The notes beneath the pieces were generated by a model. The model saw nothing but the letters and a program-made list of their open reading frames with translations. It was not told the origin of the DNA and made no database searches. Made by a program: the position numbers and the translations under genes. Below, piece after piece: positions 40,516-63,716 of a DNA stretch of 64,000 nucleotides. How positions within the stretch are numbered: the first letter of the stretch is position 1; every line of letters starts with the position of its first letter. Source of the DNA: an uncultured Pseudomonadales bacterium (GTDB taxonomy: Bacteria; Pseudomonadota; Gammaproteobacteria; Pseudomonadales; Azotimanducaceae); assembly GCA_958296165.1 (NCBI GenBank), contig OY282447.1:3819154-3883153 (forward strand), given 5' to 3'.

Positions 40516-40599
40516 CCGGCCCCTCAGCACGACTTGGAATACCACCCATCGAGCGCGAGTTCAAGCACTTGAACTGGTTCAGTAGTTATGGCACAGGGG

Positions 40600-40677
40600 C
40601 TAGGCAGCCTCCCGAGCGACAAGGTACTCGTTGGGGGCGAGGTAGTCGAGGGCCGAGTGCGGGCGTTCGTAGTTGTA
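40600..40677 (-). pseudogene. IS transposase, C-terminal piece
   Basis: The last 25 codons of the transposase (YNYERPHSALDYLAPNEYL then VAREAA and TAG). The motif YERPHSALDYL is the classic end of IS3/IS481 integrase cores. It joins the piece at 43815-43366 in frame at the Tyr codon once the 2.7-kb element is removed. Confidence 0.85.
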
Positions 40678-40715
40678 CAACTCGACTCTCGAACACCCAC
40701 GGCACCGCCGAACGC

Positions 40716-41048
40716 AGGATTCTCTACGAGTTCCACCCGTGGCACGGGCAGGAGGTCGCCATTGACCAAGTGTTCGCCAAGGGCGGCGTTTCCGTAGCCC
40801 ACTGCCGCCTGGCCAGACGGGCGCGAGGTCCGCGGCTCGAAGTGCCGTTGTGGATGTTCGACCGGCAGAGTTGCTCGACCGTTCGCAGACGGGAGCGGCC
40901 CCATGTCGATTTGGCGGCGCTCGAAGCGCTGGCGGACTTGCTGGCCGCGGCTGGCCGCGGCGATGGCGGCGCTTCCGTTTCTCCGTCGGCCACTCCGTCG
41001 GTCGTTTCCGACCGGCAGGCAGACTTGCGGTTCCGCGACCGGAGTCAA
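40716..41048 (+). CDS. Accessory protein of recombinase element (DUF5372-like)
   Basis: Open frame carrying RRILYEFHPWHGQEVAID, RLEVPLWMFD and VDLAALEALADLLAAA, the pattern of DUF5372 proteins that precede such recombinases (FHP-HG-E near the N-terminus, then a Leu-rich end). There is no ATG/GTG/TTG ahead of RILYEF inside the element, so the start is unclear; a rare ATT at 40719 is possible. The frame stays open to 41261 but overlaps the next gene there, so the true end is uncertain. Confidence 0.4.
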
Positions 41049-41058
41049 GGAGCCGATC

Positions 41059-41268
41059 ATGCGCCCGTCCCCCCCGAAGTCCATTCAGCTGGATTTGTTC
41101 GGTCCGTCGAACGACGGCCGACCTCTCGACGTGCCGCGGTGGCTCGGTCTGCCGGACCGGACGCGGCGGCGGGCGACGGTGCTGATGGCTCGGATGCTGC
41201 TGGAGCATCGCCGCGGCCAGGCCGGGGGAGCGGAGACCGGGACCGGCGGGGAGAGCGGTGATGTCTGA
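41059..41268 (+). CDS. Small protein preceding the recombinase
   Basis: 69 residues, ATG 41059 with GGAG eight bases upstream. It contains SIQLDLFGP and TVLMARMLLEHRRGQ, a layout commonly seen in the short gene between DUF5372 and the recombinase in this element type. It overlaps the recombinase start by 8 bases. Function unknown. Confidence 0.6.
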   Translation: MRPSPPKSIQLDLFGPSNDGRPLDVPRWLGLPDRTRRRATVLMARMLLEHRRGQAGGAETGTGGESGDV

Positions 41269-43341
41269 CAAGGTCCAGCGCCGCCATCTGGAACGCAAGG
41301 CGATCCTGTGCGTTCGCCAGTCTTCCGCGCATCAGGTTCTGCACAACCGCGAGAGCGGCGCGCTGCAGTACGCGATGCGCGACCGGCTGCTGGGGCTGGG
41401 CTTTGCGCAGATCGAGACCATCGACGACGATCTCGGCCGCTCGGCGTCCGGCAGCGCGGAGCGCGCCGGATTCGACCGCATGGTGGCGCAGGTCTGTCTC
41501 GGCAGGATCGGCGCGGTGGCCGCGCGGGAAGCGTCGCGGTTCGCGCGCAACAGCCGGGACTGGCAGCAGCTGATCGAGATGTGCCGGGTGGTCGACACGG
41601 TTCTGGTGGACCAGGAGGCCGTCTACGCGCCCCGGCAAAGCAACGATCGTCTGCTGCTGGGACTGAGGGCTCGCTGAACGAGTACGAGCTCGACCTGCTG
41701 CGGCAGCGCTCGCTGGCGGCGCGCCACGAGAAGGCAAGGCGCGGCGAGTTGATCGTCGCCGCGCCGGTCGGCTGCGTGAAGAACGGCGATCGTCTGGAGA
41801 AGGATCCGGACCGCCGAGTGCGGGAGGCGATTGCGCTGGCCTTCGACAAGGTCGAGGAGCTGGGCAGCGCCCGCCAGGCGCTGCTGTGGTTTCTCGAGCA
41901 CGGACTCGACCTGCCCGCCAAGCGTCCGGACGGCAGGATCGTGTGGCGCCGGCCCCGGTACGCTACGATCCACCAGTTGATATCCAACCCGGCCTACGGC
42001 GGGGCCTACGCCTACGGCAGGAGCCGCGCCGTGGCGGCCTACGGCGAGTCGGGCGTTCGGGTCGGGCACGAGCGCAGGCCGCGCGACGAGTGGCTGGCGC
42101 TCAAGCCCGGAGCCCACGAGGGGTATGTCGACTGGGACCGCGCCGAGGCGATACGCACGATGGTCGGCAACAACCGGCCTGCCAGCAAACATCATGGCGC
42201 CGCCAAGCACGGCGACGCGCTGCTGGCCGGCCTGGTGCGCTGCCGGCGTTGCGGACGCAAGTTGACGGTTCGGTACAGCGGCCGCCGGCACGACATTCCT
42301 CGATACGCCTGCCGCCGGGGCTGGCTGGACAACGGCGAGCCCAGCTGCATCTCCTTCGGCGGTCTTCGCGTGGACGACGCCGTCGAGGCGGCCCTCCTCG
42401 AAGTCGTCGGGCCCGGCGCGGTCGACGCCGCCGCGCGGGCGGAGGCCGAGGCGGCCGCCCGGCGCGACGAGGTTCGGGAGGCGCTGGCGCGCGACCTGGA
42501 GGCCGCCCGCTACGCGGTGGACCGCGCCTTCCGCCAATACGACGCCGCGGATCCGGCCAACCGTCTGGTGGCGTCGGAGCTGGAAGCGCGCTGGGAAGCG
42601 GCCCTGGAACGGCAGCGCGAGGTCGAGGCGAAGCTTTCCGCCCACGACGGCGCCAGCCTTTCGAGGCCCGATCCGAGCCCGGTGCCGTTCGCCACGCTGG
42701 CTCGGGATCTCCAGGCGGTCTGGAACGCGCCGGCCACCGACGCCCGCCTCAAGAAGCGCATCGTGCGCACTCTTGTCGACGAAGTCGTCGCCGACATCGA
42801 TGCGGACGCCGCGAACGGGACGGGCGAGGTGGTGCTGGTGGTTCACTGGGCGGGGGGCGTGCATGCGGAACTGCGCCTGCCGAGAAGACGACGCGGACAA
42901 CGCAACAGCACGCCGCTCGAAACGGTCGAGGCGGTCCGCCGCCTCGCCCTGATCGCCAGCGACGACGTGATCGCCGGCGTGCTCAATCGCAACGGGCTGC
43001 GCACCGGCAACGGCAACCGCTGGACGCGCGAACGCGTCTGCGCGTTGCGCCGCTACCGCAGGATCCCCGCGTTCCGCCCGGCTCCGGACGGCGTCGAGCC
43101 CTGGCTCAATCTCGCCAACGCGTCCGCGCTGCTCAATCTGACTCCCCGGACGCTCAGACTCGCGGCGCAGGCCGGAGAACTCGATTCGCTCCGCCCCTTG
43201 CCGGACGGTCCCTGGCTCTTCAAACGCGCGGATCTCGAAGGTCCGGCCGGACAATCGCTTGCCGCGAGAGCGAAAAGTCGGCGCAAGCACGCCGCAGTAC
43301 CGAACCCGAATCAGCAAAACCTAATCGAATCAACAGCATAG
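41261..43341 (+). pseudogene. Large serine recombinase, frameshifted
   Basis: The N-terminal resolvase domain begins at ATG 41261 with catalytic-type Ser near residue 21 (AILCVRQSS), then FARNSRDWQQL. The frame stops at TGA 41675-41677. The family sequence continues one frame over: GSLNEYELDLLRQRSLAARH, a recombinase domain (RPRYATIHQLISNPAYGGAY), a zinc ribbon (LVRCRRCGRKLTV then YACRRGW) and a coiled coil. One G missing from AGGG at 41667-41669 would restore the 693-residue frame. Either a true inactivation, programmed frameshifting or a sequencing error. Confidence 0.8.
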
Positions 43342-43365
43342 AAAGATGGGCGTTATGAAACAGAC

Positions 43366-43815
43366 TTGTAGAAGAATTCGTGTTTGAGGAGCTTCCTGGA
43401 GACGGCCTTGACGGTGAGGTCGCAGTCGAGGAAGTTCCAGAACTCGATGCGGGCGGTGCGGTTGGCGCGTTCGACGTGTCCGTTCCACTGCGGTCGCCGC
43501 GGCGGCAGGACTCGGAGGTCGATGCCGAGTTCCCTGCAGGCGTCCTCGAACTCGGCCATGAACTCGCTGCCGCCGTCGACCTGGATGGAGAGCACGGGCG
43601 CGGGGAAGGACTCGACGACGGCGTCGAGGAAGCGCCTGGCGTTGAAGGCGGTGGCGCGGGAGAAGACGCGGGCGACCATGAACCGGCTGACGGGGCAGAT
43701 GGCGCGGAACTCCTTGATGGTCTGGCCGTCGCGGGAGAAGGTCATGTGGTCGATCTGGACGAGCTGGCCGGGGCGCTCGGCCTTGTCGCCGTACTTCCAG
43801 CGCCGCGCCCAGCCG
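43366..43815 (-). pseudogene. IS transposase, middle/catalytic piece
   Basis: Reads GWARRWKYGDKAERPGQLVQ then IDHMTF (first Asp), PVLSIQVDGGSEFMAEFEDA (second Asp) and RPQWNGHVERANRT (Glu): a complete DDE rve core. The frame continues from the N-terminal piece at 63605-63116 through the shared GWA codons. It ends at the TTGTA junction. Confidence 0.88.
43805..43815. repeat. attL core candidate
   Basis: GCGCCCAGCCG, left copy of the 11-bp direct repeat that bounds the island. It falls in the codons for GWA of the IS transposase. Confidence 0.7.
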
Positions 43816-43989
43816 CCATCCTCTTGTTCTCCCAGTTCCGACAGCGTCCGCGTTTGTACTTCAAGTCATTGTTTATTCTGGAAATGTTGTCCTTAGTCGT
43901 TCTTTTTAGTCCGTGGCCGCTTGACGACAGCCAGAACGGAATGGTATAAGCTATGGTCTAAGCCCCGGGATCGGCGAGAAGGGGAAGGC

Positions 43990-45165
43990 ATGGACAGGAA
44001 AGGGCCGCTGACGGTCGCGTTCGTGCGCGCCGTCAAGCACTCCGGGAAGGGCGGCATCGACTGGCACATCGACGCGCTGGGGCACGGCCTGATGCTGGCC
44101 GTCCAGCCGTCCGGAACCAAGAGCTGGGTGCAGCGCATCGTGGTCCGGGGCAGGCGGCGCAGCGCGGGTCTCGGCGGCTATCCGCTGGTGTCGCTCGCCG
44201 AAGCGCGGGACGCCGCGTTCGCCAACCGCCGGATCGCCCGGCGCGGCGGCGACCCCTTCGAGTACCGCCGCCGGCCGTCCGCGCCGACGTTCGCCGACGC
44301 CGCCGCCCAGGTGATCGACGCCCAGGCCGTCGCGTGGACGAATCCCAAGAGCCGGAAGCAGTGGGAAAGCTCCCTCGCCGCCTACGCCTTCCCCGCGATC
44401 GGCGACAAGCGGGTCGACGCAATCGACAGCGCCGACGTGATGGCGGTGCTCGCGCCCATCTGGGGCGACAGGCGCGAGACCGCGGGCCGCGTTCGGCAGA
44501 GGATTTCGGCGGTCATGCGGTGGGCCATCGCCCACGGCCACCGAGCCGACGACCCGGCCGGCCCGGCCGTTCTCCAAGCCTTGCCGAAAGGCGCCGGCAA
44601 AGTGAAGCATCACAAGGCGCTGCCCCATGCCGAAGTCGCCGACGCCCTCTCGAGAGTGCGGGCGAGCAACGCCTGGCAGGCGACGCGGCTGGTTTTCGAG
44701 TTCATCGTGCTCACCGCCTGCCGAAGCGGCGAAGCGCGCGGCGCCACGTGGTCCGAAATCGACGGCGACGCCTGGACGATCCCGGCCGAGCGAATGAAGG
44801 CGCAGTCCGAACACCGAGTGCCGCTGTCGCCACAAGCGCTCGCCGTGCTCGAGCAGGCGCGGTCGATTCCGCGCACCGCCGCGGCCGGCGATCTCGTGTT
44901 CCCGAGCGTTCGGGGACGCCAGCTCTCGGACAGCACGATCAGCAAGCTCCTGCGCGCGCTCTCCGTGGACGCGGTGCCGCACGGGTTCCGCAGCAGCTTC
45001 CGCGACTGGGCGTCGGAATGCACCGACGCGCCCCACGCCGTGATGGAGGCGGCGCTCGCGCACGGGATCAGAGACCGGGCGGAAGCGGCCTACGCGAGAA
45101 GCGACCTGCTGGCGAAGCGGCGCGAGCTGATGGACGCCTGGGCCGCCTACGCGGCCCCTTCGTAG
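43990..45165 (+). CDS. Tyrosine recombinase (island integrase)
   Basis: 391 residues from ATG 43990 with GGGGAAGG upstream. DUF4102-like N-terminus (GLMLAVQPSGTKSWVQRI) and catalytic residues R245 (ACRSGEARG), K270, H331-x-x-R334 (HGFRSSFRDW), H358 and Y369 (AAYARSDL). It is strongly similar along its whole length to the integrase at 11610-12848. It should cut at GCGCCCAGCCG to insert the island. AATGGTATAAG lies 40 bp upstream and again near the right end, perhaps as arm-binding sites. Confidence 0.92.
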   Translation: MDRKGPLTVAFVRAVKHSGKGGIDWHIDALGHGLMLAVQPSGTKSWVQRIVVRGRRRSAGLGGYPLVSLAEARDAAFANRRIARRGGDPFEYRRRPSAPTFADAAAQVIDAQAVAWTNPKSRKQWESSLAAYAFPAIGDKRVDAIDSADVMAVLAPIWGDRRETAGRVRQRISAVMRWAIAHGHRADDPAGPAVLQALPKGAGKVKHHKALPHAEVADALSRVRASNAWQATRLVFEFIVLTACRSGEARGATWSEIDGDAWTIPAERMKAQSEHRVPLSPQALAVLEQARSIPRTAAAGDLVFPSVRGRQLSDSTISKLLRALSVDAVPHGFRSSFRDWASECTDAPHAVMEAALAHGIRDRAEAAYARSDLLAKRRELMDAWAAYAAPS

Positions 45166-45283
45166 CCCGAGTCCGCGCCGAGAAGTTCGCCAGCGCCGCG
45201 CGCCGGAGACGCAGCGCGCGACGGATTGGGGGGTGGCTTACGCTGCGCGTCATGGTTCTCGCCTCCTCTGGAACACAGTTGGC

Positions 45284-46968
45284 CTAGGTTCCTTCCTGTC
45301 CCGCGCCGACAGGGAACTCGGCCACCCATATCTGGTCGCCTGCGGGGGTGAACTGCCCGGTGCGGATGCGGGCGACGGGATAGTCGGGGAGCGTCCGCTC
45401 CGCGATGCACTGGCCGCCAAAAGCCAGGGCGGCGTGTTCCCCGGCGTGTTCCCCGTAGTGGAAGTTCATACCGCCGAAGCCGTACTGCCGGCGGTCGGCC
45501 GGCAGGTCCTCCACGTCTTCCGGTACGATATGCAGGAAGAACTCCGCTTGCACGTCCGCCGCGCTGCACGGCGACTTGAGGTAGGCCACCGTGTTCTCGC
45601 CGGCATAGACGTCGAAGACGGAGCGGGCCGCCGGTTCGCCGGACGCGACGGACTCGTAGTCCGTCCGCCAGGAAGGATTCGGCGCGGGCGCGGTCGGGCT
45701 CTTTCGCATCGTGCAGATATCCTGGTTCCGCTTCAGGTACTCGAGCAGGACTTCCGCCGCCCATCGATGGCCGGCGGCGTTCCAGTGGCCGTCGTGCGCC
45801 AATATCGCATCCGTCCACTCGGCACCCTGGCGGCGTATGTAGTCGTGCTGGTCGATGACGGGAATGCCCCGCGATTCGGCCAACGCGGCCAGGCGGTCGA
45901 ATCCGAGGTCGCCCCAGATGCGCATGGTGTGCGTGGACAGAATGACCAACGCGGCGCCGTCGCGGTCCGCGCGTTCCCTGAACTGGTCCAGCGCGAAGGC
46001 CGTGAAGTCCAGTGCGTCCTCGTAGACCGTCGGCAAATCCTGTGCGTGCAGGAACGGACCATCCATGCCTTCCGGCGTCGTCGGCCGCCACCCGTCGAGC
46101 AGCGCGGCGTAGCCGGGGGAGCGCCGGCTCAGCAGCGTCACCCTGGCGATCAGTTCGGGATCCGCGTCGTCCGGGAAAGAAGCGCTCATCTTGGTGTCCA
46201 GCCAGTTCGCGAAGCGAGATACGCCGGTCAGGCGGTCCGCGGCGCGCGTATGCCGGGATGGGACGGCCAGTCGGGACTCTTGGGAATAGGGATGGGGCGG
46301 TCGCAGCGTGATGATCCCGTCCGCGCCTCGTGTCGCGGAAACAGCGGGGAGTCGGTCCGGGTCCAGTCCCTGGCGCAGCCCTTCCAAAATTGGCGCATTG
46401 TTCACGAAGTCGTTGTTCACGAAGACGAGGACCAACAGAGAGGGCGCAGATACCGCGCGAATTCGTCGTAGTACGCCAGTTGGCTGACTTGGCCGGTGCC
46501 GGAGATCCCGAACGCCGAGGTCGTGATGTCCAGATGTGGGAGTTCCTCGGCGGCGAGCTCTTCCAGCCGAACGTGAAATTTCTCGGCGATGGGAACTTGG
46601 ATTGCCTCCACATAGGAATCGCCGATCGTGGCGATGTGGCAGCTTGCCGCAGCCCGCTCGAGGCCGATGGGTTCGCGATCCACGAAGCCCAGGCCGTTGA
46701 TTCGCGACTCGGTCCAGAAATCAAGGTGGTTCGTCCAACGCACATCCGCGTGGGGTTTGTATATTCCCCCGACATCGGGAGACCAGGCGTACGGACGGAA
46801 CGTCTCCCCGAAGGGCGCTCGCAGCCGCCAATACGTCTCGCCGACGACTCCGATCAGCGCCAGGCCCGCCACGAGAAACAGCGCGTTCCAGCCGGCCAGA
46901 CGCAGCGCGCGGCGGATTCCCCCGGGGGAATTGGGTGGCTTCACGCCGTGTGTTCTCGTGGAAGACAT
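45284..46968 (-). pseudogene. SGNH/GDSL hydrolase-like membrane protein, frameshifted
   Basis: The N-terminal part (46968 to about 46440) has a membrane anchor (GWNALFLVAGLALIGVV), then CHIATIGDSYVEAIQ (GDS block). The C-terminal part (46435-45284, next frame) continues LVLVFVNNDFVNNAPILEGL and has DGHWNAAGHRWAAEVLLEYL (Asp/His block). They join at YYDEFARYLRP / LLVLVF in a CT-rich run around 46436-46445, so one base was lost or misread there. Such proteins often deacylate or modify surface polysaccharides. Function lost if the shift is real. Confidence 0.65.
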
Positions 46969-47193
46969 CCTGTGCGCTGTTCTCCTGTACTCGTGGGTTG
47001 GCCGTATACGTCATCATTCCTGTGCGTACTCATTCGACCGCGCCGCCCATCAGCGGAGGACGCCTATGCGCTATTCGGAAACCTGAATCTGGACCCGCGT
47101 CGCTCCGGCAGCGCGAGTGGAGTGGAGGTCGCTCCCGTTTTCGCCCGATGGGTTCTGGAGACCATTAGGGACAAGCTCCGACCGCGCTTTCTT

Positions 47194-47379
47194 TGTCTGT
47201 CTCGGCCTCAAACCGGCCGCAAGCATCTCCGCGTGAACGCCTACAAGCGCATCAAGCGTCTGGAAGGCCAGCTGGCCCAGGCCGCCGATCTGGTGGGCTT
47301 GCTGCAACGGCGCTGGAAGCGAGCGGCCCAAACGCCGGCGCAGCAGGCGGCCGTCGCTGGCCGCCTCGGTGTTTGTTAA
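47194..47379 (+). pseudogene. Remnant of mobilization protein C-terminus
   Basis: The frame reads YKRIKRLEGQLAQAADLVGL, LQRRWKRAAQTPAQQAAVAG, then TAA. This parallels the C-terminus of the Mob-like protein at 49388-50293 (YKLLKGLEERALYAIR, RRRWRQRARTRQQEAAV). Only the end of the gene remains. The rest of 46969-47396 shows no gene. Confidence 0.45.
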
Positions 47380-47396
47380 CCGCGCTCGCACCGGTG

Positions 47397-48071
47397 TCAC
47401 CCAATGTGCGGGCGAAGCTTGGCGATCGCCTCATCCCAGCTTTGCTTCGCCCTCGGTTTGTTCGCTTCCGGAGGGCTCAATGCTCTGGCGCTCAACCAGT
47501 CCGCGTTCATCCCGTCGTGTTTCGTGCGGCGCTGTGCCCTCCCTCCGAATGCCACGACACGCGCATGCCGCAATAGCTTGATCTGCGGAGCGAGGTAGCG
47601 CTTCGCGCAAACTGTATCGTTCTCACTCCCGTCGGAGCACAGCCGACTTTGAGTTATCCAAACGTGCCGCAATTGCGCGTCGAAGGAGAGCTTGGGGTAC
47701 AGTTGTTGCAGGAAGCATCTGGCATTCTTATGGAATGGATCCCTGCAATCGCGGAAGCACTTGTAAGTGTGCTGTACGCTGGCTAGAAGCAATTCGATTG
47801 GATCCGCTTTGGGGCCGTAGACCTTGCCCTCGTCTTCATGGGGGCGCCCCGGTTCAGCGAACAGCATGACCAACTTGACGTCTTCCAATTTCCCGGTGGC
47901 ACCAAGAAACCCCCGCGGTATGTGACCGTCAGCCGGAGCCCATTTCGCTTTGTGGCACACGCGGCAGCGCACGTCGATATACGAACAGGGCGGATAGGCG
48001 CACCGAAGCACCTCGATCAATTTAGGATGTGGCCGAATTCCCATGTGCTTCTCATGTAGTCTGTTGGTCAC
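47397..48071 (-). CDS. Uracil-DNA glycosylase-like protein
   Basis: 224 residues from GTG 48071 (ATG 48044 possible). The pattern VKLVMLFAEPGRPHEDEG, RHVWITQSRLC, CAKRYLAPQIKLLRHARVVA, FGGRAQRR follows UDG-superfamily layout: motif 1 with a Pro-Gly and acidic residue, central TN/TQ-type strand, Cys-led helix and AFG-A. Cys pairs (CRVCH; CFRDC) might bind a cluster or zinc. Catalytic identity not provable. Role in repair or in defence against modified phage DNA is a guess. Confidence 0.5.
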   Translation of the reverse strand: MTNRLHEKHMGIRPHPKLIEVLRCAYPPCSYIDVRCRVCHKAKWAPADGHIPRGFLGATGKLEDVKLVMLFAEPGRPHEDEGKVYGPKADPIELLLASVQHTYKCFRDCRDPFHKNARCFLQQLYPKLSFDAQLRHVWITQSRLCSDGSENDTVCAKRYLAPQIKLLRHARVVAFGGRAQRRTKHDGMNADWLSARALSPPEANKPRAKQSWDEAIAKLRPHIG

Positions 48072-48351
48072 ATCCTAGCGTGTAACCGGCCACGCAGCGT
48101 AAGCGCCGTCGCCGCAAGCCTGCACTGGAGAGTGTCGAAGGCAGCACTCTTGATGACACATCTGACATCACCGAAGCTGCCAACACCGTCGACGAAGCTG
48201 TCCACATCGAAGACGTGGCCAATTTCATGTGGTGGACGCAAGTCGTGTGCTATGGACTCTTGCTTCTGACGCCACTTGTGTTCGCACCAAATGCCCGTTG
48301 GACAGCAGCACTTGTACTGTTCGCCGCAGTGGCGCACCGCCGAGCCTTGCG

Positions 48352-49116
48352 TCAATTCCCATTGTTGGCACGCCTGCCGGCATCGGTCCACAGCTCCGAG
48401 AGCAAGGTGCCGCCGCCTTCTTGGACATCGCTGCCACCGCACACTTCTGCCACATCGTCAAGAAGCGTGCGGTAGCCCTGCCGTCCGCAGTTAGGTTCAC
48501 AAGCTGCCCGATGCATCGAAACGAAACGGGCCGCGCAACACACCCATTGGTGTTTTGGCGGACAAGCCCACTTTGCGCGTTCGAGAGTTTCTATGTCGCC
48601 GGGCGTGTAGGGGCAGAATAGCTGGAACTGGTTGGGCTGAAACTCGTTGGGCTTGAAGTCGCAACGTACCTGATAGGCGGCGCGCCCGTCAGGGTCCGAC
48701 CAATTGAGTTCACGGATCGACGGATCGAACTGTGACGAATCCACCGTTGGTCGCTCGCACGCGCCGGGACCGAACTGGGACCGCGCCTCCCGACATGTGA
48801 CCGCGAGTTCGACGTCGCGGGTGGTCGAGTTCACGACGACCAGGTAGGCGTCGTCGGTGCATCGAGCGCGCATCAGGAACCGCCCCTCGGCGCGTTGTTG
48901 CCTTCCGGTGCTGAACGCCTGCGACTGGCCAACGAACAGCTTTGGACACATGGACGGATGCGCCAAAAGATGTCGTCCCGCCACTCGTTGCGCATCCCTG
49001 AGCGTGAATGCGAGCTCTTCCTGCTCCGCCTCAGTTTCGTTGGCGTGGACGGGCTCGTCACGACTGTCGAGTCCGCCAACCAAGACGATGAGGGCGATTT
49101 TCAGTCCGGGTTTCAT
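48352..49116 (-). CDS. Exported Cys-rich hypothetical protein
   Basis: 254 residues, ATG 49116, with AAGAGGAA upstream; it overlaps the stop of a small upstream frame by ATGA. N-terminal KIALIVLVGGL is weakly signal-like. It has ten or more Cys (CTDDAYLVVVNS; FCPYTPGDIE; WVCCAARFV; ACEPNCGRQGY), suggesting disulfides or metal. No family was recognised. It could be periplasmic. Confidence 0.5.
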   Translation of the reverse strand: MKPGLKIALIVLVGGLDSRDEPVHANETEAEQEELAFTLRDAQRVAGRHLLAHPSMCPKLFVGQSQAFSTGRQQRAEGRFLMRARCTDDAYLVVVNSTTRDVELAVTCREARSQFGPGACERPTVDSSQFDPSIRELNWSDPDGRAAYQVRCDFKPNEFQPNQFQLFCPYTPGDIETLERAKWACPPKHQWVCCAARFVSMHRAACEPNCGRQGYRTLLDDVAEVCGGSDVQEGGGTLLSELWTDAGRRANNGN

Positions 49117-49367: not shown

Positions 49368-49387
49368 GGGGGGAACGCGCGCTCTAC

Positions 49388-50293: not shown

Positions 50294-50298
50294 GACGC

Positions 50299-50432: not shown

Positions 50433-50443
50433 GGCGGCTTCTG

Positions 50444-50645: not shown

Positions 50646-50716
50646 AGAGGTGGCATGACGACCGAACGAAGATGGCCGCCGTCTTCGACTTGCCCCGTCT
50701 GTAAGACGACTAAACA

Positions 50717-51241: not shown

Positions 51242-51291
51242 CAATTGCATCAACTGAACGTCGACTCGCAGCCCGTTCAGACCTTCCCTAT

Positions 51292-53877: not shown

Positions 53878-53879
53878 TC

Positions 53880-54881: not shown

Positions 54882-54975
54882 CTTTCTTTACCTATGTGCT
54901 CGCCGCCATGAGCCTGGCGACATACATCCGCCAGTCTCGATAGGGGCTTCAGTCACCGTCACGGGTGGTATGCGT

Positions 54976-57564
54976 TCATTTCCGTCTCTCTCTGATACTC
55001 TTCACCCAAGCGGCAAATGCGCCAATGTCCTGTTCGATCTCTTCCGGCCCGGGAAAGGGCTGATTGTCAGCAGCGGACATGTCATGACCACGCATGTGCG
55101 TTGAACACTTCGACATTGCTGCCTGTACAGCTTCACAGTCAATCTTTGAAATATCAGACAGTTTCAGTATCTTGTGTTGTGTCTGCACACTTGGCCTATA
55201 TCGTTCCACAATGCCTTCCAACAGCACCTCTTCGACTCCACGCTCCCAAGTCTCACGAAGAAATCCGTAGATGTCCGCTCCCTGCACTTCGTAATCTTGT
55301 TGATTCCCCTTCCGATGCAGGCTGCCAACTGCTTCACACCTGTCTCTGAGATATTTCAAGCGTTTCCTTACCGTCATCGCGGGCGATGGTACATTCTCGG
55401 CAAGCACTCCGACGCCGATCGCCGTTCTTCGAATGAATTGACTACGATTGTCGACTCCGACATTCTTCGCCTCTTGGGACAACGCGTGCCAAAAGACGAG
55501 ATCGTGCGTAAATACGACTACTTGCCGCCTGCGCGCCTCATCGGCGAGCCGCTTAGCTACGTTATGTCGCCAGTTGTGGTCCAAAGATGAAACCGGATCG
55601 TCGAACAAGATCGTTGAGCGATCTTCGGCGGTACTAAGTTCTGAAAAAAAGGCTGCCATTGAAAGGCACCTAGCTTCGCCCTCGCTCACGACCTCGGCCA
55701 CTTCTGCACTTGGTGCGCGGGTCAACGTAATTTGATGATATAGGGATCCGCGGGATCCGCCTGCGCCCTTAAGTTCTACCTCTATTTCATGGAAGTTCAG
55801 GCGCTTCAGTTCTCGCTTAAACGCCTCTATGAGCCGCCCAGTCACGGCCCTCTTTGTGACTTCACTGCTCTTGCGGGTAATAGTATTTGTCCGAGTTTGG
55901 AGGATACACTGATGGTATGCAGCGACACGCCGCTTTCGGACTATATCGTTCAATACAGCATCGATGTTATCAGCGAGTATTTTGCGCGCCTCCAATTCTT
56001 CCAACTCGACACGTATTGTACTGACAAGTTCCGTTGTTGCGTGTGCTCTAATCTCCTCTGACCGAGTTACGAGATCGTCTATGTATCTTCGGAGAGTAGA
56101 TAGATCCAGCGCTGGCATGTAAGTCGGAGGTGAACCTCCGTCTACGGCCTTCAAGATCGTCTCGCGCCGCTCAGTCAAAGTACGAATACAGGTACGAGCA
56201 ACTACGGCAATATCCGGCCGATCTAGAGTAAGCTCATCGACAACATTGGTGAGCGAGTCGTCAACAATCACCGCTGAACCAACCGATGATAGGGCCGAGT
56301 CGAACTCGTGCTTCGCCCGCCGGTAATCTTGTTCGACGGTAGACGCTAAGTGGTCGCGGAGATCGATCAGACGGCGACTGCCCGCACCTGAGAGGGGTTG
56401 CTGGCAAAGAACACATCGCGCTCCCTTTCCTACGTTAGGAAAAATCGTTGCGGGATAGGCATCTTTAGAAGAAAATTCACGAGCGCACTCCCAGAGTTGG
56501 TGCCAAGAATCTGACCCGGTATTGGGTAACGGCATCGACATCAATACCGCAGAGTGAGACTCGAGTGTAGCCTTTTTGACATCATGTACGTGTAGAGTCT
56601 CGAACAAAGATTGGACTGAATCATCAGACAATTGACTTTGACACTTCTCAAGTTTTTTCAGAAGACCTCTTACACGATCGGCGCGAAGGCTCAGGTCTTT
56701 TGCTCGATGAAGCGGATTGTCGGCCGTCAGATCGGCGAGACGCTCTCGTAGCTCCGTAATACGGGTCCTTTCTTCGTCACTTACGGCAGATAGGCTTCTC
56801 ACCTTGTCAGAGCTAGTGAGTGCTGTTAGGTTATCCAAGAGATCACTTACAACAGTTCCGTCGGGAACAGTCGGCAGGTTCAACTCCTGACTCTCAAGCG
56901 ACGTTCGTTCTCTTTCCAAGACTTTCTTCACTTCTTCGCACGTTTGCGCGAGGTAGTCAAATAGATCGAGCCCCATTGGGCGAAAAGCAACATCTGTTGG
57001 CTTACTGACGTAGACTCCGGCGCAATGGCTATCGAAGACGCTAACGCCCCTGAGGGCACTATCGGTACCGTGATCATCCCAGTCATAGTCAATCGAGTCG
57101 TTGCCGATGCTGTAGTTTATGGTGGCCGAAGGCATCTTAGGTGGTCCACCAGACGTGACGTCGCCAAGAATCCGCTCCACACCGCGAGCTCTACAGGCAC
57201 GCTTTAGAATCCTGGTGTAGCCGGATTTCCCTGTGCCGTTATCACCGTACACTACGGTCAGATTCGGACCAAAGGTGATGGTCTGACCGGGGGCAAGTGC
57301 ATTGACGCCGGCGTGGTGTGTAAGGCTGTTCAAGGTGACAGTCTTGCCAATTTCGGACCGGTTGGGAAGCTGACTTGCACGAAGGGGTTGCGACTCAATC
57401 CCTTCGTCGAGCCCGTAAGAGGACTTGCAGAGCGACACGAGATCATTGATGTCGGCGTCGTCGACCGCTCCCTTCGTCACGAGCCGACGCAGCGCGTCTT
57501 TCTGCCACTCGGGCCTATCGACGGACCAATCCAAAATCTCTTGATATATGTTGACGCTGGCCAC
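54976..57564 (-). CDS. Rad50/SMC-like AAA ATPase with CxxC hook
   Basis: 862 residues from GTG 57564 (AGGAAGAGA upstream). The N-terminus has RPEWQKDALRRLVTKGAV, then Walker A YGDNGTGKSGYTRIL (107-114). Coiled coil surrounds CVLCQQPL (~384-387), a zinc-hook-like CxxC. The C-terminal half has SEGEARCLSMAAF (ABC signature region), STILFDDPVSSLDHNWR (Walker B/D-loop) and VVVFTHDLVF (His switch). AAA_13-type proteins such as RloC/PrrC have this plan and act in defence. No anticodon-nuclease motif could be assigned to the C-terminus. Base composition is visibly lower in GC than that of its neighbours. Confidence 0.78.
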   Translation of the reverse strand: MASVNIYQEILDWSVDRPEWQKDALRRLVTKGAVDDADINDLVSLCKSSYGLDEGIESQPLRASQLPNRSEIGKTVTLNSLTHHAGVNALAPGQTITFGPNLTVVYGDNGTGKSGYTRILKRACRARGVERILGDVTSGGPPKMPSATINYSIGNDSIDYDWDDHGTDSALRGVSVFDSHCAGVYVSKPTDVAFRPMGLDLFDYLAQTCEEVKKVLERERTSLESQELNLPTVPDGTVVSDLLDNLTALTSSDKVRSLSAVSDEERTRITELRERLADLTADNPLHRAKDLSLRADRVRGLLKKLEKCQSQLSDDSVQSLFETLHVHDVKKATLESHSAVLMSMPLPNTGSDSWHQLWECAREFSSKDAYPATIFPNVGKGARCVLCQQPLSGAGSRRLIDLRDHLASTVEQDYRRAKHEFDSALSSVGSAVIVDDSLTNVVDELTLDRPDIAVVARTCIRTLTERRETILKAVDGGSPPTYMPALDLSTLRRYIDDLVTRSEEIRAHATTELVSTIRVELEELEARKILADNIDAVLNDIVRKRRVAAYHQCILQTRTNTITRKSSEVTKRAVTGRLIEAFKRELKRLNFHEIEVELKGAGGSRGSLYHQITLTRAPSAEVAEVVSEGEARCLSMAAFFSELSTAEDRSTILFDDPVSSLDHNWRHNVAKRLADEARRRQVVVFTHDLVFWHALSQEAKNVGVDNRSQFIRRTAIGVGVLAENVPSPAMTVRKRLKYLRDRCEAVGSLHRKGNQQDYEVQGADIYGFLRETWERGVEEVLLEGIVERYRPSVQTQHKILKLSDISKIDCEAVQAAMSKCSTHMRGHDMSAADNQPFPGPEEIEQDIGAFAAWVKSIRERRK

Positions 57565-57578
57565 TTGTAGGTCTCTTC

Positions 57579-57776
57579 CTAGTTGGTCTCGCTGATCGCC
57601 ACGTTTGACTGAAACATCACAACCAACGTTGAGTTGACGGCACCATCGTCGATACCGAGCTCTGCTGACAGGAGCGATGAATAGCCGATGGCCAGTTCTC
57701 TATGTCTGACGTGGCGACTCGAGAGCCAAGTTTTCATCACACTGCACATGCTCACTGATTGGATGCCCGTTTCCAA
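57579..57776 (-). CDS. Possible small protein or fragment
   Basis: 65 codons overlapping the end of the methyltransferase fragment by 25 bp and ending 14 bp before the SMC-like gene. [20 protein letters not shown] then [11 protein letters not shown] looks protein-like. It may be the tail of a broken gene. No family recognised. Confidence 0.22.
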
Positions 57777-58922
57777 GCAGTCAAGTAGCCCACGTCGCTC
57801 TGGCAGAAGTCGAACGGAGCAACCCAGCGATGTACCGTCGCCCCCACGTCACCACATCGTAGGGAATGGGTGGTGTGGTCCTTGCCGCGATGTACGACAC
57901 CCCGCTCGAGGTCGTGGACATCCTCCCAGCCCAACGCTATGCCCTCCTTCGTCCCGTCCGACATCGTCAGTGAATAGCTGGTGTCTCCTTTGATGGCCTT
58001 GCGGCTCAGCCCCACGCCCGGCAAGCCCTTTGATGGAGTGAAGACGACGCGCCCGTTCGCGTCATAGTATGTCTCGGCTTCGTACTGCCGCATGACGGGG
58101 AACTGGATACGGTAGATGGCGAGAAGTTCGTCGAAGGTCAATCCTAGGGCTTTAGCGGCTAGGACGTCGATTTCAACTAGCGCTTGCCGACGGGCGTAAT
58201 CCGTGCGTAGGGCGTGGTCTCGGTGCCATTCTGATGTGAGCTCCGACCAGTCGTTGGGGAGGCGCGGGTCTTGGCGCATCCAAGCGTCTTGGCGGAAGGC
58301 GTCGATGGCGGTCATCGTGGTGCCGTTGGCTGATGTCTGTTGAGACGTACAAGCAGCGTACCACAGGTCGGCGTAGTGGTTGGTGAGGCAGCACAGGCGT
58401 AAGGCTCTGATTCTTAAGGCGGCTCGGATGCGTGGGTCGCAACCTTCGGTGAGGATGGGGAGGCGGCTTAGCCAAGAGAGGTTGGCGTGGCCGGACCCTG
58501 TCGTCTTCATGAAGAAATCGAGGACGATGGACATTGAGAGGGCAGCGAAGTCGAGCAGTTGTCCTGCATCACGGAAGGCGGTGGCGACGCAAGTATTGAT
58601 GAGGCCAACGCCCTTGGGGATGATCGCCGGTACAAGAGTGCGTTCAAGAGCGGCGCTAATCATCTCTCGGTGGATTAGACGGTAGTAGTCCGTCATCTTG
58701 CGCGGTTCATCCTCCCCCGGCTCACACTAGGCCACCCGTGGCGTCCGCGCCTTGTACTCCTCGGCACTACAAGCCGGAACGTAGTTCGTGCGCGGCAGGT
58801 AGTCGTCTGGCAGCGTGGCGAGGTCGAGCACATCGTAGTGGCTGTTCTGCGTACACACGCGGCGCGGCGTCTTGTTGAACGGGTTGCCCACGAAGAAGTG
58901 CGGGCCGGAGAGAGGATCAGCT
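57752..58922 (-). pseudogene. C-terminal part of large Eco57I-type methyltransferase, with nonsense mutation
   Basis: Starts abruptly at about GADPLSGPHFFVGNPFNK, continues LTTLP-like DLATLPDDYLPRTNYVPA, then hits TAG (58729-58727) where the same frame goes on as [17 protein letters not shown]; the expected Trp codon TGG has become TAG. It continues with [37 protein letters not shown] and [20 protein letters not shown]. These are C-terminal features of the very large adenine methyltransferases of phage-restriction systems. The N-terminal and SAM-binding parts are missing. The end is also diverged. Confidence 0.7.
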
Positions 58923-59448
58923 CCGAGGCGTCCGCAGGAAACCGCGTTTCGCGGCGGATAGGCGCTGCCACGCGAGCCACCTGCGGCGCTTGCAAGGCTG
59001 GCTGGACGAGCGCGGCGCCACGCTCGGCTTGACGACGGGACTGCTGGCGGTCGGGTTGGCGGCGGCAAAACCGCGTGGCGACGCGGCTGGCGTTGGTTCT
59101 AGCGCTCGACGACCGGCAGCATGGCCTCGGCACAGCGGAAGTCGACGAGCCCCTGGCCGAACTCGCGATCGACGCCGGGTTCCCCGACGTCTTCCGTGCA
59201 TCTACCCAACGCGAACCGTTGTCGCCGTCCTCGTTGAGCAGCAACGCGCTATCTACCCTCCTCAGCCTTGACAGGAAGCCAGCCAAGCCGCGCTATCGCC
59301 GACGGGCCCAGTCGGCGAACTACCTCGCCGAACCCGTCTCGCCCACGTCGTATTGCCCTAGGGGGATGCCTGGGTGGACGCGCTAGTGACTGGTCAATCG
59401 GCGAGTTCACGACTGAGTTTCTGAGCCTCGGCAATCTGCGTCCGGGTC
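58923..59448. other. Stretch without a recognisable gene
   Basis: High GC with overlapping Arg/Ala-rich frames in all directions, none with domain-like sequence. It separates the two inverted methyltransferase fragments and may be scrambled remnant DNA. Confidence 0.4.
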
Positions 59449-60264
59449 ATGTTTGCCGACAAGTCTGCCCGGATGCTCGACTTCGCCGCGTTGTCCATGT
59501 CCATTGTGTTGGACTTCCTGATACGGACAGCGGGAGCCACCCACGTGCGCTTCTCGCAGCTACGCGGCCTCCCCATCCTCACCGAAGATTGCGACCCACG
59601 CATCCGTGCCGCCTTAAGAGTCAGAGCCTTACGCCTATGCTGCCTAACCAACCACTACGCCGACCTGTGGTACGATGCTTGCACATCTCAACTTCCAGCG
59701 CCGACGGACACCCAGCCCATGACCGCCATCGACTACGCCCGCCGCCAAGCCCTAGTCGAAATCGACGTCTTGGCTGCCAAAGCCTTGGGGCTGACCTTGG
59801 ACGAACTCCAAACCATCTACCGCGTACAATTCCCCGTCATGCGCCAATATGAAGCCGAGACCTACTACGACGCCAACGGACGCATCGTCTTCACGCCATC
59901 GAAGGGACTGCCGGGCGTGGGTTTGCCCCGTAGAGCTATCAAGGGCGACACCAGCTATACGTTGACAACGCCGGAGAGCACAAAGGAGGGCGTAGCCACC
60001 GCCGACGGCAGCCCGCCAGCGCTGATCGACTGCGTCCACCGCCTGATGCACCTGTGGAAGACCGGCGAGCAGAGCCGCGTGGACGCCTACTTGGAAGCCC
60101 AGGGCCTATGGCGCAACGAACTCTGCCGGCAGGTGGTGCAGGCCATCCTGGAGCTTGCCAGGCCGGGCACGGACGAGCGTGCTACGCTTGAGTACATCCA
60201 GAACCACTTGGCGGCCCACGGCGGAACGCCCATGCCGCGGCAGCGAGCCCTGTTGGACGAATAG
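59449..60264 (+). pseudogene. Inverted, chimeric methyltransferase fragment
   Basis: The first ~180 codons duplicate the fragment on the other strand at 57752-58696: [53 protein letters not shown], then [20 protein letters not shown]. About 40 residues between TAID and YARRQ are missing relative to that copy. After KEGVA the sequence switches to [38 protein letters not shown], resembling the C-terminus of DUF1156-type methyltransferases. The frame is open from ATG 59449 for 271 codons, but neither parent is complete. Confidence 0.6.
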
Positions 60265-60393
60265 GATTCATGTCGGTCCCGACGACCTTTCGGCTACGCG
60301 GTCTCAAAGGCGGGTCTAGCGGGCGGCCGGACGGTGTGCCTCTACCAGCCGAGCCTGAGCGCGGTCGCACGGCGTCGCCGCCGCCCGGGACAA

Positions 60394-60735
60394 TCAGGCT
60401 ACTCTTTGGATGGATCGCTCCGAGATTGACGGTTCGCCTACCGCTATACGCTTCATTTTGCCGAACGACCGGCGTTCTTCCGCGGTTAGATACCGCCACG
60501 ACTGCGGGACAACGAAATTGGCGAACTTCCTACGCAAGTCCGCTAGGGGGAGTGGATGCTTGTGTTCCCACGCATGTGCAATGTTCAGTGCGAACGCCTT
60601 CGATCGTCCTTTGTAGTAGGACTCAAAGGTAGCTTCGTCCACACGCGCCAAGTGCTTGACTTTCCGCCAGACGACTTCGGGCGTGTCTTCCCACACCTTG
60701 TCTACTCTGAAGCCACCCGGTCGGATCGTACGCAT
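60394..60735 (-). CDS. ASCH-like domain fragment
   Basis: 113 residues from ATG 60735. DKVWEDTPEVVWRKVKHLAR, YYKGRSKAFALNIAHAWEHK, then FVVPQSWRYL follow the C-terminal half of ASCH/PUA-like proteins (W-x-TP, YYKGR-KA-A, PPQS-RYL). The usual N-terminal strand with the RNA/nucleotide-binding loop is missing, so it may be truncated. Confidence 0.45.
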   Translation of the reverse strand: MRTIRPGGFRVDKVWEDTPEVVWRKVKHLARVDEATFESYYKGRSKAFALNIAHAWEHKHPLPLADLRRKFANFVVPQSWRYLTAEERRSFGKMKRIAVGEPSISERSIQRVA

Positions 60736-61136
60736 TCGGAATCCCGCAGGCCAAGCAAAGACGTTCACCTTCGACAAAGGCTGGCTCGCCGTGGCGGAGC
60801 GCGATTGACGATGGCGAGCAGGTGGGCGTGCAGGCCAAGCGCTACGAGGAGAGCGCGGGCGGCCGTGTCCGCAGCCGGCTGGCTGTCGCCGAGACCCACG
60901 CGACGGAGTTGCGCGAAAGAAATTCGTCGCCCGCTGCGTGACTCGTGCAAACGGGTTTTCGCGGCATGTCGGACATGAACGGCACTTGGCCATGTCCAAT
61001 CTCAGAGAGCTCCCCACCTCGCCGGGCAAAGTCCTCATCCAAGAGCTCCGACGCTGGGGCCGCCGCCGGCGGCGTTCACCGTGGTGGCCGAACCGGCGGA
61101 AGCTGGTTGCACCCGTTTCGGCGCATCCATCGTCAG
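60736..61136. other. Stretch without a recognisable gene
   Basis: Only mutually overlapping low-quality frames are present. A minus-strand CPTCRENP motif at about 60950-60990 could be zinc-ribbon debris, but nothing continuous supports a gene. Confidence 0.35.
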
Positions 61137-61799
61137 TTATGAAGCAAGGTGTCTTACATCCTCCCATTTCAGTATGTTTTCCTTCTTGAGCCAGCCTTGT
61201 TTGCACATAAACTGGACCTGCCCTCGTCGCTTCGCTTCCTCCACGTTGTTTACGATGAGAAAAGGTGTCACTTCTATCTCGCACTTGAGTATTTCAACCA
61301 ACAAGCTCGCCGTGACGTATTGGCGGACGAGTTGATGAACCAGAAACAGATTTGTACTTGCGCTGAACGCCATCTCGCTTTTGGCCTCTCCAACGAACAG
61401 ATGATTTGGAGTTTGCAGAACAATATCTATTTCGGTGTTGCGGAGATTGTCGAATAGCTTGACCCATCTCTGCCCGCTTGGGCGATAGTTCCCTTGCCCT
61501 TTGAGGCCACCGAAATCTGCTTGATGTAGAAGTGGGAACCGGTCCTCGTAGAGTGTCTTCCACTCATGATCGGTCTCACGGCCCGCCTCCTTTTGGTGCA
61601 AGTAGTCTCGCACCCCGCTCCAATACAATTCGAGGCTCACCTCATCCGGGCGAGTCTCTTTAGGTTCACCAAGCAGCCTAACGAACTCTAAGCGGGCCGT
61701 ATCGTTCTGAAGCAACGGGACGAAATGCAGCGCCGTCTTCCAATTTTCCGTTCGGTTCTCTATTCCCAAGATCATTCGGCTCTCTGCCCCCAAGATCAA
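61137..61799 (-). CDS. PD-(D/E)XK nuclease-like protein
   Basis: 220 residues from ATG 61799 (several in-frame ATGs follow). The core NTEIDIVLQTPNHLFVGEAK gives D125-x12-E138-x-K140, the PD-(D/E)XK nuclease signature, followed by a helix with Gln/Tyr (LVHQLVRQYVTASLL) typical of the fold. The C-terminus (CKQGWLKKENILKWEDV) is intact-looking. It likely cuts DNA as a stand-alone defence nuclease. No partner methylase gene is adjacent. Confidence 0.55.
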   Translation of the reverse strand: MILGAESRMILGIENRTENWKTALHFVPLLQNDTARLEFVRLLGEPKETRPDEVSLELYWSGVRDYLHQKEAGRETDHEWKTLYEDRFPLLHQADFGGLKGQGNYRPSGQRWVKLFDNLRNTEIDIVLQTPNHLFVGEAKSEMAFSASTNLFLVHQLVRQYVTASLLVEILKCEIEVTPFLIVNNVEEAKRRGQVQFMCKQGWLKKENILKWEDVRHLAS

Positions 61800-61920
61800 T
61801 GTCCCCTTCCCGACCGGGTTGGCCGTCGCCGCCGACCTCGGGTTTCGTGTGTCCCGGACGCTCCAAGCGTCCAGATGGCAGGATCGTGTGGCGCCGGGCG
61901 TTGAGGGTCAGAGACCGGCA

Positions 61921-62787
61921 CTAATTGGCGTCAGAGGGCACCGATGTCCGAAGCTGATTCACGAATTTCTTGACCGTGGCAACGGTGCGTGACACGCTCT
62001 CGGCTGAGGTTGAAGTCGACGCATAGTCGTTCCCGTGAGCGAGGTTGTCGCGAAGTTCGCAGATCGCCCGGAAGTCCTTCCTCAGCTGGGAGTTACTGCC
62101 AGCCACGAGGCCTCCTCTGCGTATGATGATGGTTGCCTTGTCGGCTAACTGGGTTGAAGCGATGTCGCTCACAAAGGTGTCGTTCCCCTTTGTTTCGGCA
62201 ATCCGGTCTGTGACGTTCTTGCGCCGAGCAGGGCTGAGCAAGTCGAGCCAGCCCCTTGGTCTGTCCTGCCACGCGTCATCGATACGGTCGGCCATGGCCA
62301 TTTCCAACGCAGTGACGACGCTGAACAGCGCTGCCCGTACGGGTAGCTTGTGGAGGTCCGCCATGCACACCAGACCCACGATATCGGTGCCGGAAACGAC
62401 AAGCCGCGTCGGGCGTTCGACTCCCTTCTTGATGAATTCCAAGATGCCGGCGTTGCTACCAATTAGATGGTCCTCCGTGAGGGGTTCGAAGTCGTCACCT
62501 ATTGATTCACCCGGAGTTGGCGCCTCTTTGAACCACCGCTCGGCGCGGTAGAGCCCAGTAATGCGGTAGAGCCCAGTAATGGGGTCGGCCTGCTCGACGG
62601 GAAGAAAGCTGAATTGGTCGACGTTCTTCGCCATGAGGCAGCCGATACAGTCGTTGGGCCTGCAAGTCATCAGCTTGTCTCGGGGCGTCATGATGAGGCC
62701 CACAGTCAAACCTGCTTGCATGGCCTGGACCGTTTCGGGTGTAGTGTCGGCAGGAGTGGCCCACGGGGGGTCCCCTACTGTTGTCAT
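61921..62787 (-). CDS. CBS-domain protein with HEPN-like C-terminus
   Basis: 288 residues, ATG 62787. Residues ~20-155 form a CBS-like pair (GLIMTPRDKLMTCRPNDCIG, FSFLPVEQ, then RLVVSGTDIVGLVCMADLHK LPVR). The C-terminal half is helical and ends with ELRDNLAHGND (R246-x4-H251), the R-x4-6-H motif of HEPN ribonucleases. A ligand sensor joined to an RNA-cutting domain is a plausible abortive-infection layout. A perfect 18-bp tandem duplication gives ITGLYRITGLYR in the linker. Confidence 0.5.
   Translation of the reverse strand: MTTVGDPPWATPADTTPETVQAMQAGLTVGLIMTPRDKLMTCRPNDCIGCLMAKNVDQFSFLPVEQADPITGLYRITGLYRAERWFKEAPTPGESIGDDFEPLTEDHLIGSNAGILEFIKKGVERPTRLVVSGTDIVGLVCMADLHKLPVRAALFSVVTALEMAMADRIDDAWQDRPRGWLDLLSPARRKNVTDRIAETKGNDTFVSDIASTQLADKATIIIRRGGLVAGSNSQLRKDFRAICELRDNLAHGNDYASTSTSAESVSRTVATVKKFVNQLRTSVPSDAN
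62545..62580. repeat. Perfect 18-bp tandem duplication inside a gene
   Basis: GCGGTAGAGCCCAGTAAT twice in a row (62545-62562, 62563-62580). It adds six codons in frame to the CBS/HEPN-like protein. Perfect identity implies a recent slip. Confidence 0.85.
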
Positions 62788-63115
62788 CTGCTGAGGCGTA
62801 TCCTGTCCAAGTCATTTTGGGCAATCATAGTGCTCGCTCCAGTCAGCGTAAAGGTTCTGAACTGGTTCCGGCCAAGACGTTCACCCCATGAATTCGCTTG
62901 ACACCATGACCGCGGCTTAGACCGGCCGCCAGCGTATCGCGGACTGGCGCGGACGCCTGCGGAACCATGCGAACCAACGATTGGCGACGTTCGCCCAGCG
63001 GAAAATCCCGCGTCCGGCGCGGCCGTGGCGCGGTATATGAAATGGTATAAGTGCGGAACGCCGATAGCAGAGTTAGCCCTTGAAAATCATATAGTTACGT
63101 GCATAGATCGGCGGT
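62788..63115. other. Non-coding right end of the island
   Basis: No gene seen. AATGGTATAAG at 63041-63051 repeats the 11 bases at 43940-43950 near the other island end, and GTATATGA precedes it (63033-63040). These are candidate integrase arm sites. Confidence 0.45.
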
Positions 63116-63126
63116 GCGCCCAGCCG
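63116..63126. repeat. attR core candidate
   Basis: GCGCCCAGCCG, right copy of the island-bounding direct repeat, within the IS transposase N-terminal piece. Confidence 0.7.
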
Positions 63127-63605
63127 TCGAACCTGCGGCGGCGCCTGGGCTTGACCCGGCCTTCGCAGATGCTGGCGAGGGGCACGGCGCCGGCGGCGAT
63201 GGCGCGCGAGAGGATGCGCCCGACGGTGGACACGCTCAGGCGCAGGCCCTTGCGTTCGAGCATGCGCTGGATCGGCGCCTTGCCCATGAACGGATGCCTG
63301 CGGCGCAGATCCAGGACGGCCTTCACGTCGCTCGGCTTGTACGACCAGCGCCGGACGCGGCGCGGGCGGGTGGACTTCGGCGCCAGGCCGCGCTGGCCGC
63401 TCGCGGCCAGCGCGGCCTTCCACCGACACATCGTGCGGCGGCTGACGCCGATCTCCCTCAGGGCGGCCGGCGCGGCGCAGCCGGCTCCGCGCAGTTCGTC
63501 GTACCGGCGGATCGCCGACAGGCGCTCGCGGGCCTCGGCCGGCAGCTCGGCGTCGTCGACCTTGAAACTGCGGTACGATCGCGTCCGCATCGATTCGATC
63601 TTCAT
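63116..63605 (-). pseudogene. IS transposase, N-terminal piece
   Basis: ATG 63605 with AAAGGAGA upstream. The HTH region (CAAPAALREIGVSRRTMCRW KAAL) and second HTH (MLERKGLRLSVSTVGRIL) are followed by RRRRRFDGWA, after which the frame leaves the family sequence (RSMHVTI). The next residues expected (RRWKYGDK) are found at 43805 downward, in the same frame. Residue 162 (Trp) is the joint. Confidence 0.88.
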
Positions 63606-63716
63606 GGTTCGGGTCTCCTTTCAGTGGGTTTTGCGTTCACTGAAGGCTACCCGATCCGGCGTCGGCGGCGGGTCTTCCGTCGCCGGCGCCGCCTCAGCCA
63701 ATCACGGCCCGGGCTG

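Follow-up and report, generated by a model that had tools for sequence, protein, structure and literature searches.

An IS481-like insertion sequence interrupted by two unrelated site-specific elements, one of them from a serine-recombinase family found mostly in insertion-sequence genes

We analyzed a 64,000-nt stretch of DNA (the window) from an uncultured Pseudomonadales bacterium of the Azotimanducaceae (assembly GCA_958296165.1, contig OY282447.1, positions 3,819,154 to 3,883,153 of the forward strand), whose 5.07-Mb genome, called G000 hereafter, is a single contig. Between positions 40570 and 63741 of the window a transposase gene lies in three pieces. We are highly confident that a single copy of an IS481-like insertion sequence (IS) became the integration site of two unrelated site-specific elements, a serine-recombinase element and a tyrosine-integrase island, and that the first of these belongs to a wider family targeting IS genes.

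The three pieces, all on the minus strand, make up a single 1168-bp IS from which nothing has been lost, as determined by alignment to intact copies. IS positions 1-108 lie at 40570-40677 (left end and 3' part of the transposase gene, with the stop at 40600 and one mismatch before the joint), positions 104-553 at 43366-43815 (middle part with the DDE (rve) domain) and positions 543-1168 at 63116-63741 (5' part of the gene with its start at 63605 and helix-turn-helix (HTH) domains, followed by the right end; one mismatch). Six intact full-length copies are present elsewhere in G000. Their transposase shows 100% protein identity to the first piece and 97-98% identity to the middle piece, and its frame extends over 338 codons from stop to stop, or 333 aa from the ATG. 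The intact copies have related inverted ends and a target duplication of 5 bp in five of six cases and of 6 bp in the sixth. The outer ends of the split copy bear the same 5-bp duplication, GCACT, at 40565-40569 and 63742-63746, and it is therefore one IS copy, not three. The original prediction, made from the letters alone, had joined the pieces into one split transposase gene, a claim that intact homologues failing to align through the joints would have contradicted; the six intact copies align through both joints without loss. Only its coordinates need amendment, as the proposed intervals sum to 1004 nt with one base counted twice at each joint (IS 108 and IS 549), for a coding length of 1002 nt. 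With HTH and rve domains, inverted terminal repeats and short target duplications the IS resembles the IS481 family, which is also the best family among the curated NCBIfam models; the transposase differs from that family in scoring 176.8 bits against an equivalog cut-off of 224, hence the name IS481-like.

Both interruptions are bordered by exact core repeats. The serine-recombinase element (40678-43365, plus strand, about 2.69 kb) lies between two copies of TTGTA at 40673-40677 and 43366-43370, the transposase gene resuming beyond it within the YN-YERPH motif. The tyrosine-integrase island (43816-63115, plus strand, 19.3 kb) is flanked by GCGCCCAGCCG at 43805-43815 and 63116-63126. The claim that two unrelated elements entered the same IS gene, each in a site-specific manner, is supported. 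Chance joints were ruled out by the six intact copies, the target duplication and the core repeats. The joints are more than chance also because the serine joint recurs at further loci and the island joint at one further IS481-like copy.

The serine element contains two genes. A small open reading frame (ORF; 41059-41268, plus strand), without Pfam match, is situated directly upstream of the recombinase gene and overlaps it; four relatives described below (L150-L153) have a small ORF annotated in the corresponding position. The large serine recombinase gene (41258-43341, plus strand) encodes Resolvase, Recombinase and zinc-ribbon domains and a weak HTH_17 match. In the window these domains are split over two broken frames, and the gene is whole in the annotations of L149-L153; the N-terminal Resolvase, Recombinase and zinc-ribbon domains occur in one protein in L151 and L154. 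The borders are those of a large serine recombinase element, with a short identical core at both ends (TTGTA in the window, TA(C/T)AA in relatives) and no long target duplication. In L143, L170 and L186, an HTH gene was seen upstream of the recombinase as well (by the Pfam scan in L186 only).

Element DNA was searched for in G000 and in a second uncultured Pseudomonadales genome of the same genus (G001, OY282460.1), where 40 of 220 and 40 of 241 candidates were scored, respectively, and the counts are lower bounds. At least six loci carry matches of 150 bp or more at 94% identity or more, two in G000 and four in G001, and all six join the IS at the same position (five left and two right joints, the window giving both). 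Among the 16 rows of the search, eight form these six loci, two correspond to the more distant relative L144 and six, of at most 107 bp, were left out, of which L136, L138 and L140 were inspected. The six loci might in principle derive from copying, one IS with its serine element having been duplicated through transposition in trans or recombination, in which case the joints in this genus would represent one event. Consistent with this, the joint and the element are common to all six loci, and the IS haplotype 115T, 190G, 193G is found beside the element in both genomes. However, where left joints were seen (five loci), identity is 87-98% in the IS flank compared to 95-100% in the first 156 bp of the element (best local matches), and two loci lie in a different IS subtype with a different flank. 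Repeated insertion is therefore favoured over copying, even though all copies but that of the window, five in number, are partial, and as plasmid relatives reside in other ISs, we consider the copying scenario unlikely.

Relatives with 66-70% identity are found on plasmids of the alphaproteobacteria Microvirga, Alloyangia, Acidiphilium, Rhizobium, Sphingomonas and Methylocystis (L148-L153, with L151 from Rhizobium johnstonii 3841). They are located inside IS3-family transposase genes, one flank ending in ...YN and the other resuming at YN..RPH, and these codons are those used in the FFYNYERPH motif of the window; in L152 the transposase gene was identified on the 3' side alone, next to a stop. 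The same YN joint is present in L160, L181, L183 and L185, and the fragments L175 and L176 adjoin the same IS3 joint on one side only. Where joint DNA of the relatives was found, on 11 left and 10 right sides, all 21 have TA(C/T)AA. More distant relatives interrupt other genes at other conserved codons. A second recombinase of G000 (L144, 43% identity) splits the istB gene of an IS21-type element at the P-loop codons, between GPP and GVGKT, and the IstB P-loop is also split in L154, L155 and L159 (both sides recognised) and in L157 (one side). IS66 genes are interrupted in tnpC (L158, L162, L163, L164, L166, L182 and L184, with one side in L187) or in tnpB (L179, L180, L188 and L189). An IS110 transposase gene is split in L156, an IS5 transposase gene in L190, a group II intron reverse transcriptase (RT) gene in L167 and an IS91 transposase gene, at its HHPH codons, in L171. 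One side each of an IstA joint was found in L143 and L186, and one side each of a joint with an integrase gene beside an IS91-type transposase gene in L165 and L178. HHPH, the P-loop and YN..RPH each belong to the conserved or catalytic motifs of their families.

Curated family models place these cuts consistently. Pieces stop at position 342 of the IS66 profile in both L162 and L166, and at positions 228 (L143) and 227 (L186) of the IS21 profile; the two L190 pieces cover positions 1-224 and 219-257 of the 258-position IS5 profile. Some queries of the panel used to recognise targets were taken from the loci themselves, and it is the family models, the annotations and the matches between loci, not self-matches, that count as evidence; short second halves, such as those of L158, L162, L167 and L171, were identified by visual reading. 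Relative to the target gene, elements are oriented differently among loci, and a fixed transcriptional relation is therefore not required.

To what extent the family is confined to IS genes was assessed in several samples. On plasmids, 12 loci were hand-picked from the best matches for variety of organism, and all 12 lie in IS genes, as seen from a single side for L152 and L157. An even sample, consisting of 16 records taken at regular steps down the ranking of 444 with the best place for each record, gave 14 recombinases located within IS or IS-associated genes, the target being identified from a single side for L178, L186 and L187; the remaining two are partial copies, L191 (63% of the query covered) and L192 (28%), for which no target gene was resolved. 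Combined, 25 of 27 plasmid loci are in IS or IS-associated genes (the 12 hand-picked ones and 15 others, L154 being in both sets), L165 and L178 being counted as IS-associated. Two samples of genomes were searched with at most three candidates scored per genome, which makes the resulting counts lower bounds. Among 390 genomes sampled at the order level, at least three had a recombinase match at E 1e-30: G000, G384, taken to be G001 on the basis of agreeing match positions, and G118. In a phylum sample of 398 genomes, at least 12 had matches, G000 included, and 10 of the 16 places outside G000 show a joint in a mobile-element gene (L160, L162-L167, L171, L175 and L176); L162/L163 and L175/L176 are pairs from G501 and G641, and each pair appears to be a single insertion recovered from both genomes.

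In a tree of 26 recombinases, users of the YN site are grouped with a support of 1.00, as are users of TnpC. The group of IstB users also holds the IS110 user and one IS91-integrase user, and this nesting implies that targets switch. Target specificity thus tracks ancestry, with switches. L161 (G423) falls among the YN users; a YN joint was not found there, the 3' end being cut off beside an apparent IS630-like gene. Taken together, it seems probable that we are dealing with a broad and apparently undescribed family of minimal serine-recombinase elements acting as dedicated parasites on other mobile elements, in which each subclade would read one conserved and often catalytic motif (YN..RPH of IS3/IS481, the IstB P-loop, IstA, IS66 TnpC/TnpB, the HUH motif of IS91, the C-terminal domain of IS110, IS5 or the group II intron RT) and would switch host from motif to motif. 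Insertion would disarm the IS and may act as a brake on IS expansion, and IS copies would constitute self-renewing sites.

The tyrosine-integrase island behaves differently with respect to its targets. Its integrase gene (43921-45165, plus strand) starts about 0.1 kb from the left core and encodes the three domains Arm-DNA-bind_3, Phage_int_M and Phage_integrase, a layout of P4-type islands, with the integrase beside one end; the island of the window sits in the IS481-like gene, not in a tRNA gene. G001 carries four complete related islands with integrases 92-95% identical. Two of them, E1 and E4 (L113, L118 and L119), occupy the same site of an ISAs1-type transposase gene, whose E1 piece scores 66.4 bits (cut-off 70). 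Their orientations are opposite, which points to a core that is nearly symmetric; the upstream region of this gene we take to be DruA-like (DUF4338). The third island lies in an ISKra4 gene scoring 219.5 bits (cut-off 205) and the fourth at the 3' end of tRNA-Arg(CCT). G000 contains two additional right ends of islands that lack their integrase: one adjoins a second IS481-like copy at the same site as in the window, and the other a piece of an IS110-type gene that reaches 60.6 bits (cut-off 140) and passes the Pfam model. The search for island ends, which like that for IS481 fragments scored 40 candidates per genome and thus gives lower bounds, returned 13 rows. Seven ends could be mapped from them, and six rows with weak matches (29-38 bp, or 71% over 108 bp) were left unmapped. 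Of the seven mapped ends, counting that of the window, six lie in transposase genes, which represent four families, and one lies in tRNA-Arg. One G001 locus with an island-end fragment beside IS 829-1168, which fits insertion followed by deletion, was left out of these counts. The island as a specialist for the IS of the window was rejected, since sister islands use other genes. The island integrase is flexible and, in the island lineage, lands mostly in transposase genes.

These results bear on the proposal, also part of the original prediction, that the IS serves as a landing pad for larger elements. It holds well for the serine element: in two genomes of one genus, all six substantial loci share one IS position, and most resolved relatives are in IS genes. 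For the island it stands in part: another IS481-like copy has a related island end at the same site, and the sister islands use IS110-type, ISAs1-type and ISKra4 genes as well as the tRNA-Arg gene.

Insertion might alternatively be widespread, insertions into IS genes being merely the harmless survivors in an IS-rich genome. Both genomes do carry many IS fragments, and the island uses several sites, a tRNA gene among them. Such a survival bias is opposed by the serine joints, which fall on the same codons across IS families and genera and, in G000 and G001, on one position at six of six substantial loci, and by the wider integrase family. G000 encodes eight near-full-length integrases of the same family as that of the island; the seven diverged ones (53-74% identity) flank tRNA-Asp, tRNA-Ser or apparently ordinary host sequence, and an IS gene flanks none of the seven when the integrase side is inspected by eye, compared to six of seven for the island ends (Fisher p = 0.0047). 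We therefore regard survival bias as very unlikely. One of the diverged integrases lies within the window itself (11664-12836), beside an apparent pnuC-like gene.

A number of observations weigh against targeting of IS genes as set out here. For the wider family, six of the 16 phylum places lack a resolved mobile-element joint: L170 adjoins an rve transposase with the joint not resolved, IS pieces are only nearby in L172 and L174, a target gene was not recognised in L161 and L168, and L169 adjoins phage-like genes. The nesting of IS110 and IS91-integrase users among IstB users likewise departs from a strict match between clade and target. Within the genus, the window copy has a broken recombinase frame, and truncation or internal deletion affects each of the five remaining copies in G000 and G001. 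Among the short matches, L136 (107 bp at 84%) has no IS481 piece beside it, and in L138 (G000, 2018.7 kb) a 43-bp element piece abuts IS 1-38, away from the usual joint, with IS 1079-1168 about 1.2 kb off; L138 is a rearranged remnant of an IS plus element. Regarding the island, IS481 fragments at 349.6 kb and 4218.9 kb of G000 break within 12 bp of the island site and carry no island end, for which reason they were dropped as candidate island-site breaks, and for L050, one of the diverged integrases, an IS481 fragment lies at a distance of about 0.9 kb on the side away from the integrase.

The middle piece of the split IS (43366-43815) deserves separate mention. Relative to the intact copies it has 10 differences in 450 positions, whereas the outer pieces have 2 in the 730 compared (Fisher p = 0.0018), and it shares three of four comparable informative alleles with an IS piece of G001 that adjoins another serine element. 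The diverged tract is situated between the two attachment (att) sites and could result from conversion between IS copies or from exchange of the segment between these sites; partial conversion or cassette exchange is thus possible. An origin of the three pieces from separate IS copies, joined by recombination, is very unlikely: this divergence is its one argument, and the matching outer target duplications and the exact core repeats at both joints speak against it.

The island also carries cargo genes. On the plus strand it encodes a JAB-domain protein (50717-51241). Three genes on the minus strand are candidates for anti-phage defence: a subtilase resembling IetS (51292-53877), an AAA ATPase resembling IetA (53880-54881) and a PDC-S06-like protein (54976-57564). 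They are followed by a fragment of a type IIG restriction enzyme-methyltransferase (57752-58696, minus strand). This fragment is similar to 59449-60264 on the plus strand, an apparent inverted duplication spanning 57752-60264. No relaxase or type IV secretion genes turned up among the island ORFs in general scans, which were not aimed at them.

We propose the following scenario, which for its enzymatic part is predicted from sequence. An IS481-like IS would have entered the chromosome with a 5-bp duplication and subsequently hosted two unrelated site-specific elements. The serine element would be an integrative element of two genes, the small ORF and the large serine recombinase, of roughly 2.5 kb. 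Its putative circular form would recombine, by serine-recombinase chemistry, the TA(C/T)AA core with the Tyr-Asn codons of YN..RPH in an IS3/IS481-type transposase gene, an insertion that splits the transposase gene and is expected to silence it. Other serine subclades occupy conserved codons in other IS genes, namely the IstB P-loop, IstA, IS66 TnpC and TnpB, IS91, IS110 and IS5. A likely reason for such a preference is that the supply of sites would be renewed by ISs, which are multicopy and mobile, and that codon conservation would stop the site from drifting away; because of these properties, an IS gene would be a site that is easily found at a low cost for the host. The island would rely on a relaxed P4-type integrase, landing in its lineage mostly in transposase genes.

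The usual explanation for an integration site is a tRNA gene or a conserved gene of the host. In the present case a gene of another mobile element serves as the conserved multicopy site, and the target codons are ones that the IS can hardly change. This provides a testable host-parasite system among mobile elements. The bacterial attachment site (attB) of a recombinase may be predictable from its clade, which would give a catalogue of serine recombinases with paired sites. It also points to a possible mechanism holding down the IS load of IS-rich genomes; if true, the elements may act as natural brakes on IS expansion.

Several known systems can be compared to the two elements. P4-type (Arm-DNA-bind_3) integrase islands, which typically target tRNA genes, share with the island the domain layout, the integrase next to one end and the core repeat, and one sister island is in tRNA-Arg; the difference is that six of seven mapped ends of the window island lineage lie in transposase genes. 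Inteins and other homing elements also insert at highly conserved coding motifs, P-loops included. Those at conserved active-site motifs are spliced out of the product and the host protein is preserved, whereas here the target gene is cut. The only NCBIfam match of the window recombinase piece is the fdxN element excision recombinase XisF (NF041201), at 41.2 bits against a cut-off of 375, which does not support XisF-type membership. A survey of large serine recombinases (PMC10083194), in the part available to us, describes site-specific and multi-targeting groups, targets enriched for DNA competence genes and a multi-targeting DUF4368 clade. Like the elements described here, these recombinases insert inside genes and form single- or multi-targeting clades; codons of IS catalytic motifs are not mentioned as targets in that part of the survey. 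In the open-access literature, subscription papers being mostly uncovered, we recognised no description of serine-recombinase elements specialised on IS genes, and PMC9203015, PMC4701971, PMC7371123 and PMC3925955, in the parts available, concern other systems. The closest parallel in logic is provided by helper-embedded phage-inducible chromosomal islands (PICIs), as far as the accessible part of PMC10111431 describes them. These are phage satellites with tyrosine integrases, inserted in prophage genes, whereas here a serine-recombinase family inserts in IS genes, its elements having two genes without recognised satellite functions. In both cases an integrase clade is specialised on another class of mobile elements, repeatedly targeting prophage late genes in the case of the PICIs, subclades follow groups of sites, and a tRNA gene is occasionally used.

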